From contig JAUSCR010000140.1 in assembly GCA_030651175.1 (NCBI GenBank), positions 1 to 35,551 on the forward strand: a DNA stretch of 35,551 nucleotides, given 5' to 3'. The translations under genes and the position numbers were made by a program. This DNA comes from Dehalococcoidia bacterium. Its GTDB lineage: Bacteria > Chloroflexota > Dehalococcoidia > Lucifugimonadales > SHYF01. Position 1 is the first letter of the stretch. Every line of letters begins with the position of its first letter. Of the stretch, positions 14,860 through 18,970 are shown piece by piece. The notes beneath the pieces were generated by a model that was not told the origin of the DNA, did no database searches, and saw only the letters and a list, made by a program, of their open reading frames with translations.

Positions 14860-14888
14860 TTGACACCAGGCCAGTGCCTGCGTACAGT
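14860..14888 (+). promoter_or_regulatory. Promoter of riboswitch-controlled transcript
   Basis: TTGACA (14860-14865), 17-bp spacer, TACAGT (14883-14888). Confidence 0.6.
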
Positions 14889-14928
14889 AGTAATGTTCCT
14901 TAGCAATTTAACAACCTCATATTCTCTC

Positions 14929-15086
14929 CCGGGCGCCAGCAACGGCTCAAATGGGAAGGCGGTGTAATTCCGCCACGGTTGCGCCACTGTGAACGGGGAG
15001 CCTGCCAGCACAATGCCACTGTCCTTCTACGAAGGATGGGAAGGCGCTGGCCAGGCGATGACCCGCAAGTCAGGAGACCTGCCCGG
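14929..15086 (+). ncRNA. Cobalamin riboswitch
   Basis: GGGAAGGCGGTGTAATTCCGCC...TTGCGCCACTGTGAACGGGGAGCC...GCCACTGTCC...GGGAAGGCGCTGGCCAGGCGATGACCCGCAAGTCAGGAGACCTGCC; P1 CCGGGC (14929-14934) / GCCCGG (15081-15086). Confidence 0.92.
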
Positions 15087-15185
15087 TAAGAAGTGCTCTA
15101 CTCTGCGCCATACAGAGGACGCCCCGCGATGGTTGCCTTTACCCTGGTTTGGGTTAAAGGCGAAATCGCTATTCCACTAGCTAGT

Positions 15186-15213
15186 CCCCGCGTCGAGTAG
15201 AGCGGGGTTTTTT
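15186..15213 (+). terminator. Intrinsic terminator of the cobalamin riboswitch expression platform
   Basis: CCCCGC (15186-15191), loop, GCGGGG (15202-15207), TTTTTT (15208-15213). Confidence 0.85.
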
Positions 15214-15253
15214 GTTGCCTTGACAGGAAGGGGATTGTTGGCTGCTGGCATCA

Positions 15254-15339
15254 CCCGCTCATTTCCTTCGACAAGCTCAGGATGAGCGGGAGTGCTTTTC
15301 CGCTCGTGGTGAGCCTGTCGAACCATACGAGCGGAAAAG
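15254..15339. repeat. Family B repeat, two consecutive hairpins
   Basis: CCGCTCATttccttcgacaagctcaggATGAGCGG and CTTTTCCGCTCGT...ACGAGCGGAAAAG. Confidence 0.7.
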
Positions 15340-15414
15340 TCAACCTTATTGTGAACAGAGCCAAACGGGATGAAGACAATCGGATAGGATTAGTCGCGTG
15401 AAAGGGAGGTTATC

Positions 15415-16068
15415 ATGGAAGAGCATACCTACGAGCTGATTCAGGCACGGGCCGTCCCAGGCCCTTGGGCCAGAAGGTGGCGCTGGCTTAACGTTCCACG
15501 CGCGCTGGCCGATACCGCCGCTATCCTGGCTTTTGTGGCCGCTATCCTGGCCACCAACTACGCCCTGGCCAGCTTCCCCAACGTGAAGCTGTTCGACCTG
15601 ATGGTATTCCTTGCTGGCTATACCCTGGGCTTCCGGAAGGGAGCCGCCGTGGCCGTGGTAGCCTGGCTGGTTTACGGCAATTTCAACCCTTACGGCCCTA
15701 CCACCGCACCTCTTCTGGCCACCGTCATGGCCGCGGAGACGGTCTACGCCGTTGCTGGCGCCTTGATTCGCAGGCTGGTCGCGCCAGGGAGCGTTCGATT
15801 GCTGCCCAGCAGGAGCGGCCTTCTGTTCGCCGTGGCCGCTGTCGTATCCACACTGGCATATGACGTGGCCGCCAACGTCTATACCGGCATCTCCTGGGCT
15901 ATGTTCGCCGGGTCTGCCGACTACTCCCGCTGGATAGTTACAGCGCTCTTTAACCCAGGAGCTCTCTTTTTTGCCGCAGCACACCTCTCTAGCAACGCCC
16001 TGTTCTTCGCCGCATTTGCTCCGCTATTGATCAAAGGGGCCGAGAAGGTCAGAAAGGGGAGCGCTTGA
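15415..16068 (+). CDS. ECF transporter S-component-like membrane protein (predicted cobalamin/corrinoid uptake)
   Basis: Multi-spanning hydrophobic protein (ADTAAILAFVAAILATNYALASFPNVKLFDLMVFLAGYTLGFRKGAAVAVVAWLVYGNFNPYGP...), downstream of a B12 riboswitch; GGGAGG ribosome-binding site. Confidence 0.7.
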   Translation: MEEHTYELIQARAVPGPWARRWRWLNVPRALADTAAILAFVAAILATNYALASFPNVKLFDLMVFLAGYTLGFRKGAAVAVVAWLVYGNFNPYGPTTAPLLATVMAAETVYAVAGALIRRLVAPGSVRLLPSRSGLLFAVAAVVSTLAYDVAANVYTGISWAMFAGSADYSRWIVTALFNPGALFFAAAHLSSNALFFAAFAPLLIKGAEKVRKGSA

Positions 16069-16532
16069 TGTTGCGCGCAAGGCCACTCCGCGCTGTTCAA
16101 GCTCTTGGCCTTCTGGCCGTCGTCGGGCTGCTGCTGGCTCTCGCAGCGTGTGGAACCCAGGAAAAAGCCGCTGAACCCGCGACCATCAAAGTCAGTATGC
16201 TGGTCCAGTCCAGCAAAGATGATGCAAGGTGGTTCCGGAATGTGGAGGTCGCCAAGGGGACAGATGCCTATGAGCTGACGGAGAAAGTGACCCAGGGCGA
16301 TTTGAGGTCCACCTACTCCGCGCTATACAGGTCGCACTTTGTAGACTCCATCCTGGGCGTTGAGAACAAGAATCCCAAGTTCTGGCTGATCTACGGCTGG
16401 AGCGAGCCGGAGAAGAAGTGGGAACCCCTGCCTGTGGGCGCTGACCTCTACTCACTCAAGGACGGCCACATCCTGGCATGGTATTATGCGGACACCACTA
16501 ACGAGGGAGCGCTCCCCACGGCAACTCCATGA
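16068..16532 (+). CDS. DUF4430-domain lipoprotein (predicted extracytoplasmic corrinoid-binding protein)
   Basis: Lipobox-like LLALAACG; FWLIYGWSEPEKKWEPLPVGADLYSLKDGHILAWYY resembles the DUF4430/transcobalamin C-terminal domain; start overlaps the stop of the upstream gene. Confidence 0.7.
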   Translation: MLRARPLRAVQALGLLAVVGLLLALAACGTQEKAAEPATIKVSMLVQSSKDDARWFRNVEVAKGTDAYELTEKVTQGDLRSTYSALYRSHFVDSILGVENKNPKFWLIYGWSEPEKKWEPLPVGADLYSLKDGHILAWYYADTTNEGALPTATP

Positions 16533-17623
16533 CCACCAAACGTTTGCGAATAGGTGTCATAGGCGTTGGCTTTGGCTCCAGTGTCCAGATCCCTGGGTTC
16601 CAGGCCGAGGATATGGAGGTGGTAGCCGTCTGCACTCGCCGGAGAGAGGGCGCAGAGCGGGCTGCCCAAGAGTTCGGGATCCCCGGCGTCTACACCGACT
16701 ACCGCCAGATGCTCCAGCACCCGGGCCTGGATGCGGTGAGCATTGCGACACCGCCAGTTTCTCACCATAAGATAGCCCTGGAGGCCCTGGATGCTGGCAA
16801 GCACGTCCTGTGCGAGAAGGCCTTTGCCATGGACCAGGGTCAGGCGCGTGAGATGTGGCAAAGGGCCGAGCAGACCGGCCTTACGGCCATGGTCAACCAC
16901 CTGTTTCGCTTCGCTCCAGGCCGGGCCTACGTGAAGGAGCTGCTCCAACAAGGCTACGTGGGAGACATACGGACTGTTCACACGACACTCTTCATGGGCC
17001 CCACGAGAAGCCCGAGGCCTCGCCCAATGACCTGGGGCAGCCAGGCTTCCCAGGGGGGTGGGTTCCTAAAAGCTCTGGGTTCCCACTACATTGATGGCCT
17101 GCTGGACTGGTCTTGCGAGATCACCAGAGTGTGCGGTGGGACATTCCAGTTGGACGCCGAGCGGGTGGACCCGGAAAGCGGTCGCAATGTCCGCGCCGAC
17201 ACCGACGACTCCTTTGGCTTCATATTCACCCTCAAGAACGGCGGCTGGGGGTCCATGACGGCCAGCAGTGCCTCCCCCTTCGGGTCCGGCGCTATGATCC
17301 AAATCTACGGGACCCAGGGAACCCTGCAAACACCTCAGCGCGGCGCTAACCCGGCGCCAGACGGCATTGTCCTGGGCGCCAAGTTCGCAGAAGGCCACGG
17401 CGTCCAGGAGCTGCCCATGCCAGAGCGGTTCCGCCCTTTTGACGACCCGCGGGACGAAAGGTCGTTGGCCTTCCGCCTTCTGGTCCGCCGCTTCATCCAG
17501 GGAATTGCCGAAGGGAGTTCGCCATCGCCCAATTTCTACGACGGGTTTCGCTGTCAGCAGGTCATGGACGCGGTTGCTGAGTCGGGTGTAAGCGGGCGCT
17601 GGGTGGATATTCCGACGGAGTGA
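16529..17623 (+). CDS. Gfo/Idh/MocA-family oxidoreductase
   Basis: LRIGVIGVGFGSSVQIPGF, DAVSIATPPVSHHKIALEALDAGKHVLCEKAFAMD; ATGA overlap with the upstream DUF4430 gene. Confidence 0.92.
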   Translation: MTTKRLRIGVIGVGFGSSVQIPGFQAEDMEVVAVCTRRREGAERAAQEFGIPGVYTDYRQMLQHPGLDAVSIATPPVSHHKIALEALDAGKHVLCEKAFAMDQGQAREMWQRAEQTGLTAMVNHLFRFAPGRAYVKELLQQGYVGDIRTVHTTLFMGPTRSPRPRPMTWGSQASQGGGFLKALGSHYIDGLLDWSCEITRVCGGTFQLDAERVDPESGRNVRADTDDSFGFIFTLKNGGWGSMTASSASPFGSGAMIQIYGTQGTLQTPQRGANPAPDGIVLGAKFAEGHGVQELPMPERFRPFDDPRDERSLAFRLLVRRFIQGIAEGSSPSPNFYDGFRCQQVMDAVAESGVSGRWVDIPTE

Positions 17624-17876: not shown

Positions 17877-18404
17877 ATGGAGATCAACGAATATTTGCGG
17901 ACGCTTTTTCAGAGGCTTCACGACAACCTGAGCAGGTCAGCCCAAGGCCTTACCCAGGAACAGCTATACTGGTCCCCCGCAGAAGGCTCCAACCATATAG
18001 CCTTCTGTATGTGGCACTACACTCGCACTGAAGACAACATGGTACGCTGGACATTCCAGAACCGGCGGCCTACCGTCTGGCTGGAGGAAGGCTGGAACGA
18101 GAAGTTTGGCCTGGATAGAGTCCGCCAGGGCACAGGCATGAGTTTCCAGGAGGCTTCCGCCATTAGATTCCTCGCCATGGATGAGTTCCTCACCTACATG
18201 GGCCACGTTTGGCAGTCCACCGACGACTTTCTCAAGTCTGCCACTTCCGCTGACCTGGAGCGCACCATGACAGGAAACTATCGGACGGGCACATCCTTTT
18301 CCGAAATACTGGGAACCACCCTGCTGGGCCACGGCAATGGCCACTTGGGGCAAATTTGGACCATCCGCGGCATGATGGGAAAGGGCGAAGAGTCGCCTAT
18401 CTAG
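17877..18404 (+). CDS. DinB-like protein, tandem copy 1
   Basis: SNHIAFCMWHYTRTEDN and GHGNGHLGQIWTIRG His-containing DinB-like motifs; closely similar to 18446-18970. ORF start per track; ATG at 17877. Confidence 0.8.
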   Translation: MEINEYLRTLFQRLHDNLSRSAQGLTQEQLYWSPAEGSNHIAFCMWHYTRTEDNMVRWTFQNRRPTVWLEEGWNEKFGLDRVRQGTGMSFQEASAIRFLAMDEFLTYMGHVWQSTDDFLKSATSADLERTMTGNYRTGTSFSEILGTTLLGHGNGHLGQIWTIRGMMGKGEESPI

Positions 18405-18445
18405 CAGGGTGATAAATAAGGAGACCTGAGAGGAGATCCCTGCAC

Positions 18446-18970
18446 ATGGAGATCAACGACTATTTGCGGCCGCTTTTTCAACGGCTTCACGAAAACCTGG
18501 GCAGGTCAGCCCAAGGCCTAACCCAGGAACAGCTACACTGGTGCCCCGCAGAAGGCTCCAACCATATAGCCTTCTGTATGTGGCACTACACTCGCTCCGA
18601 AGACAACCTGGTACGATGGACATTCCAGAACCGTCGGCCTACCGTCTGGCTGGAGGAGGGCTGGAACGAGAAGTTTGGCATGGACCGAGCGAGACAGGGG
18701 ACTGGGATGACTCCCCAGGAGGCTGCCGCCATTAGATTCCCCGCCATAGATGAGTTCCTCACCTACATGGGCCACGTTTGGCAGTCCACCGACGACTTCC
18801 TGGTATCTGCCACCCCCGCTGACCTGAAGCGCGCCATAACAGGCAACTACAGGCCAGGCACGCCCATAGCCGACGTTCTGGGGTACATGCTGGCCCACGG
18901 CAGTGGCCACCTGGGGCAAATCTGGACTGTCCGTGGTTTGATGGGAAAGGGCCAAGAGTCGCCTATCTAG
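18446..18970 (+). CDS. DinB-like protein, tandem copy 2
   Basis: Same length and motifs as copy 1, high identity at protein and DNA level. Confidence 0.8.
   Translation: MEINDYLRPLFQRLHENLGRSAQGLTQEQLHWCPAEGSNHIAFCMWHYTRSEDNLVRWTFQNRRPTVWLEEGWNEKFGMDRARQGTGMTPQEAAAIRFPAIDEFLTYMGHVWQSTDDFLVSATPADLKRAITGNYRPGTPIADVLGYMLAHGSGHLGQIWTVRGLMGKGQESPI

Follow-up and report, generated by a model that had tools for sequence, protein, structure and literature searches.

BtuM is a solitary cobalamin transporter whose fold is that of an S-component; in E. coli it moves cobalamin with no ECF module (PMC6072759). ECF-CbrT of Lactobacillus delbrueckii, the complex of the cobalamin S-component CbrT, gives no transport when the ECF module is missing (PMC5997447). 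In L. rhamnosus, an ‘additional lipoprotein component of putative cobalamin ECF transporter’ has been annotated, and a DUF4430 gene, which may encode that component or a separate protein, neighbours the reductase gene rtpR (PMC9963975). The notion that a cobalamin S-component may have a lipoprotein partner predates the present work and is not wholly new. The gene rtpR is presumably that of an adenosylcobalamin-dependent ribonucleotide reductase. In humans, the isolated beta domain of transcobalamin binds cyanocobalamin and cobinamide by itself (PMC5599065). Here we describe a gene pair of Dehalococcoidia, S–D, that probably encodes a two-protein importer of corrinoids (B12), controlled by B12, independent of ECF modules and acting in place of BtuFCD. 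Searches of the open-access literature found no description of such a pair without an ECF module, of its riboswitch control or of its exchange with BtuFCD.

The pair lies in a stretch of 35,551 nucleotides (the window) from a Dehalococcoidia bacterium, with the promoter, the leader elements and the three genes all on the forward strand. A sigma-70-like promoter, recognized by consensus match only (TTGACA-17-TACAGT, 14860–14888; 10 of 12 consensus bases, with 0.3 expected in shuffles), is followed by a cobalamin riboswitch aptamer (RF00174, 14914–15100) that spans the full length of the model (positions 1–189) at 115.5 bits (E = 1.7e-28; curated score, 31.5 bits). It is the one copy found in the window genome (2.48 Mb, 97.8% complete). 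An intrinsic terminator follows at 15186–15213 (CCCCGC, a 10-base loop, GCGGGG and T6), and an equivalent hairpin with a T run precedes S in loci L002, L025, L027 and L031. In the ligand-free minimum-energy fold, nine bases at the 3′ end of the aptamer (GCUCUACUC, 15095–15103) pair with GAGUAGAGC (15195–15203), which overlaps the terminator loop and 3′ arm, forming an antiterminator. This layout is compatible with termination upon cobalamin binding, a direction suggested by the arrangement of the leader. Between terminator and S, at 15265–15340, lies a palindromic repeat-like element (CCTTCGACAAGCTCAGGATGAGCGG...); a similar element occupies the same place in L002, and a 25-base query finds just a single copy in the window.

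Three genes follow: S (15415–16068), a six-helix S-component-like membrane protein of 217 amino acids; D (16068–16532), a lipoprotein of 154 amino acids with a lipobox cysteine at position 28 and a predicted DUF4430 or transcobalamin beta-domain fold; and O (16529–17623), a Gfo/Idh/MocA oxidoreductase (PF01408, 99.5 bits). D most plausibly starts at the ATG at 16068, overlapping the S stop codon (TGATG), and O overlaps the stop codon of D (ATGA). This agrees with the first-pass annotation, which had described a complete cobalamin riboswitch with promoter and terminator ahead of three overlapping genes. After the operon, at 17877–18970, stand two tandem DinB_2 or mycothiol-transferase-like genes of about 175 amino acids each, which are also in tandem in L002.

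Of 147 related genomes, 21 contain S, and at every S locus examined D is its neighbour, always in the order S–D. Profile searches of the same 147 genomes found D in all 21 and in one further genome without S, and this co-occurrence is significant (P = 1.5e-24), although Fisher tests ignore relatedness, so that here and below their P values overstate the independent evidence because the genomes are related; yet swaps within a genus do occur. The exception (genome G122, L159, 1807–2205) is a divergent, membrane-anchored orphan homologue of D with no S beside it; its genus mate G142 has S–D. Named relatives include a Lake Baikal Dehalococcoidia genome and a SAR202 genome. Outside the order, a search of 400 genomes across the phylum found no S, save for a single partial match of marginal score within a frame of far greater length, and D had no match in plasmids. 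At another S–D locus (L041, G134:C57:26430-26720), a B12-binding domain lies in a 984-amino-acid frame about 1 kb away on the opposite strand.

When the open frames of all neighbourhoods were clustered, S and D alone were common to all loci; the only other wide cluster consisted of opposite-strand shadow frames. O adjoins S–D at four loci from two families (both members of f1 and two of f29). The unit is therefore S–D and not a three-gene operon, and O is a loosely associated passenger that we reject as a core part. The three-gene order, which the first-pass annotation had proposed to survey, thus holds for its first two genes (adjacent in 21 of 21 S genomes) and fails for the third. A single corrinoid uptake-and-modification operon of S, D and O, the reading that we find hardest to credit, could draw on the D–O overlap and on the position of O 3′ of S–D at these four loci. 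The overlap, however, is limited to the window locus: gaps of roughly 120 to 400 bases separate D from O in L002, L027 and L031, the O frame is broken in L002, and O was not found adjoining S–D at the remaining loci. The corrinoid-modifying role suggested earlier for the oxidoreductase finds no support here. The break in L002 (5393–6474) splits O into two overlapping frames, through either a frameshift or an assembly error.

In D, at least 90% of family members keep the lipobox cysteine, and Trp55, His90, Trp106, Trp111, Trp118, Asp126 and Trp138 are invariant. Against PF14478 (DUF4430), D scores 15.5 bits, below the cut-off of 23.8, and 7 of the 21 members match at E < 0.1. A confident structure model (pLDDT 91) supports the assignment strongly: its 19 Foldseek matches with E of 0.001 or less consist entirely of transcobalamin, haptocorrin and intrinsic factor together with RUMGNA_00854, a bacterial protein (3u7z), with E values from 8e-7 (best) to 3e-4 and TMt of 0.73–0.82 for isolated domains, including 0.76 for the isolated transcobalamin beta domain with cyanocobalamin (CNCbl; 5np4). 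The resemblance to the transcobalamin and intrinsic factor domain that had been noted from the sequence thus holds at the level of predicted fold, with the Pfam score below cut-off. By eye, D has FW and KDG positions in common with a C-terminal stretch of transcobalamin (confirmed in the PDB). Whereas the transcobalamin and intrinsic factor family combines an alpha-helical barrel with the beta domain, D consists of the beta domain only; unlike transcobalamin, haptocorrin and intrinsic factor it is a bacterial lipoprotein, and its cobalamin binding is predicted. Single-sequence PDB searches with S and D returned nothing useful, and profile matches of D to beta-lactamase inhibitor proteins were discarded because they were based on a 13-residue stretch.

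For S, the likeness to ECF S-components suggested in the first-pass annotation is partly upheld: the predicted fold agrees weakly, and the family model PF12822 stays below its cut-off (14.7 against 30.7 bits; E < 0.1 in 12 of 21 members). The model is confident (six helices, pLDDT 89.4), and its credible Foldseek matches are all ECF S-components (PanT, ThiT, BioY and FolT), although weak (E = 0.08, TM 0.55). A profile of S had a single match in the PDB, to CbrT (6fnp), the S-component for cobalamin, and this match is not significant (E = 1.3); BtuM did not appear. Basic inner loops and a basic C terminus are consistent with both ends lying inside. The extracellular half is the substrate-binding side in S-components. 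In S, placement from predicted helices, rather than from coordinates, would put most of the invariant polar residues (Asn56, Lys58, Asp61, Asn91, Tyr149, Asp150, Asn154, Thr157, Trp161, Trp173, His190 and Asn194) in that half. S resembles BtuM in being a small six-helix S-component-like membrane protein with a putative role in B12 uptake, in genomes with no detectable ECF module, and in standing at a position from which BtuCDF is missing. It differs in being always paired with a lipoprotein and under a riboswitch, and in lacking the invariant cobalt-binding cysteine of BtuM (no column has Cys in more than 3 of 21 members). A cobalt ligand, if there is one, must therefore be another residue; as a matter of speculation, two invariant histidines, His190 in S and His90 in D, are candidates.

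The strongest evidence for function is a pattern of replacement, because it is independent of any sequence similarity of S or D. A cobalamin riboswitch was detected in 129 of the 147 relatives, usually once per genome. In S-negative relatives, a FecCD/BtuC permease lies 3′ of the riboswitch at 19 of 20 sampled loci, most of these with a visible BtuF-like lipoprotein and ATPase; the exception is in a genome with corrin-synthesis genes. BtuFCD and S–D thus occupy the same riboswitch-controlled position in close relatives, and both combine a capture protein with a membrane part; they differ in belonging to unrelated protein families and in that S–D has no dedicated ATPase. At the S–D loci, the riboswitch scores at or near threshold 5′ of S in 16 of 21, with a terminator 5′ of S in the five strongest; it was undetected in the other five, one of which is cut by a contig end.

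FecCD above cut-off is present in 4 of 21 genomes with S as against 104 of 126 without (P = 2e-8), and among genomes without CbiC, a marker of corrin synthesis, in 4 of 21 as against 100 of 107 (P = 3e-12), P values that again take no account of relatedness. These CbiC-negative genomes divide into 17 with S–D only, 100 with FecCD only, 4 with both and 7, obtained by subtraction, with neither. Exchange is visible within genera: in g29, G074 has BtuFCD and G029, G058 and G086 have S–D, and in g54, G105 has S–D and G069, G095, G112 and G117 have BtuC. In three of the four S-containing genomes with FecCD, including the window genome, the FecCD belongs to a clade separate from the riboswitch-linked ones. 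G096 alone has both systems, each under its own riboswitch: riboswitch–BtuC at L121, on a contig that also carries CobS, and riboswitch–S–D at L033.

The earlier statement that no BtuCDF or ECF parts are visible holds for the window operon, in which no FecCD permease, ATPase or BtuF was found, and for EcfT throughout the genome; it needs amending for a single FecCD-type ABC cluster that the genome has on a different contig (L045, 3889–6553; binding protein, permease and ATPase). This cluster is unlikely to import B12, as it has no riboswitch and its FecCD does not group with the riboswitch-linked BtuC clade. Its contig also carries ResB-like and cytochrome-biogenesis-like genes, and it may possibly import iron or heme.

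None of the 21 S–D genomes has CbiC, CobS was found only in G096, and riboswitch-linked BtuC is absent from all but one; B12-binding domains are nevertheless present in 18 of 21. The S–D genomes are therefore likely to be corrinoid auxotrophs without another recognized importer.

We propose that, when intracellular cobalamin is low, the leader would adopt its antiterminator fold, and the two genes would be translated as an overlapping pair. D, tethered by its lipid to the outside of the cytoplasmic membrane, would bind corrinoid through its transcobalamin-type beta domain and deliver it to an extracellular pocket of S, which would carry it across without an EcfT/EcfA module, as solitary BtuM does. 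Within its order, S–D would thereby take the place of BtuFCD. Capture of corrinoid by the lipoprotein on behalf of an S-component had already been put forward in the first-pass annotation, and is well supported by the fold of D, the perfect S–D linkage and the mutual replacement with BtuFCD. The most specific form of this proposal is a minimal B12 importer free of any ATP module, in which a lipoprotein homologous to the transcobalamin beta domain hands corrinoid to a solitary S-component, and which, on several occasions within one order, has taken over from BtuFCD behind the same riboswitch; we regard that form as evenly poised between right and wrong.

One alternative concerns the source of energy. 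S–D could import corrinoids with ATP supplied by a module that we did not recognize, for instance an EcfT/EcfA that has diverged or an ATPase that also serves another transporter. The characterized CbrT, to which S is marginally similar, needs its ECF module (PMC5997447), and helix 1 of S is alanine-rich in many members, making an AxxxA docking motif hard to judge. Several members nevertheless lack AxxxA in this helix, and BtuM is a precedent for transport without ECF (PMC6072759). EcfT, searched with one Pfam model (PF02361) in mostly draft genomes, was undetected in 21 of 21 S–D genomes, including the single-contig G105, whereas the same search was positive in 7 other relatives and in 10 of 14 control genomes. 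On the strength of this EcfT search, an ECF module elsewhere in the window genome was likewise rejected. We consider an unrecognized energy module unlikely, if well short of negligible, and the ECF module that the first-pass annotation would have added for complementation is probably unnecessary. A different challenge concerns the cargo: S–D might be regulated by B12 and carry some other substrate, for instance a lower-ligand base, cobalt, or a compound required in B12 shortage. Control by B12 riboswitches can extend to B12-independent enzymes and to cobalt transporters, and at several S–D loci the riboswitch is weak or undetected. The predicted fold of D, however, matches B12-binding domains specifically, and with riboswitch-linked BtuFCD replaced and synthesis genes absent, 20 of 21 genomes would be left with no other explanation for corrinoid import, which makes another cargo quite improbable. 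Corrinoid import by S and D, independent of an ECF module, remains the reading that we prefer.

One study reports high abundance in deep water for the SAR202-type Dehalococcoidia, the group of the source lineage (PMC6169038). For genomes that lack the corrin-synthesis marker but have B12-dependent enzymes, S–D is a specific candidate for B12 acquisition. After BtuM, it also provides a second instance, open to experiment, in which an S-component may act with no ECF module, and D is a small bacterial protein in which B12 binding by transcobalamin-type beta domains, and hence the origin of the B12 carriers of animals, may be probed.
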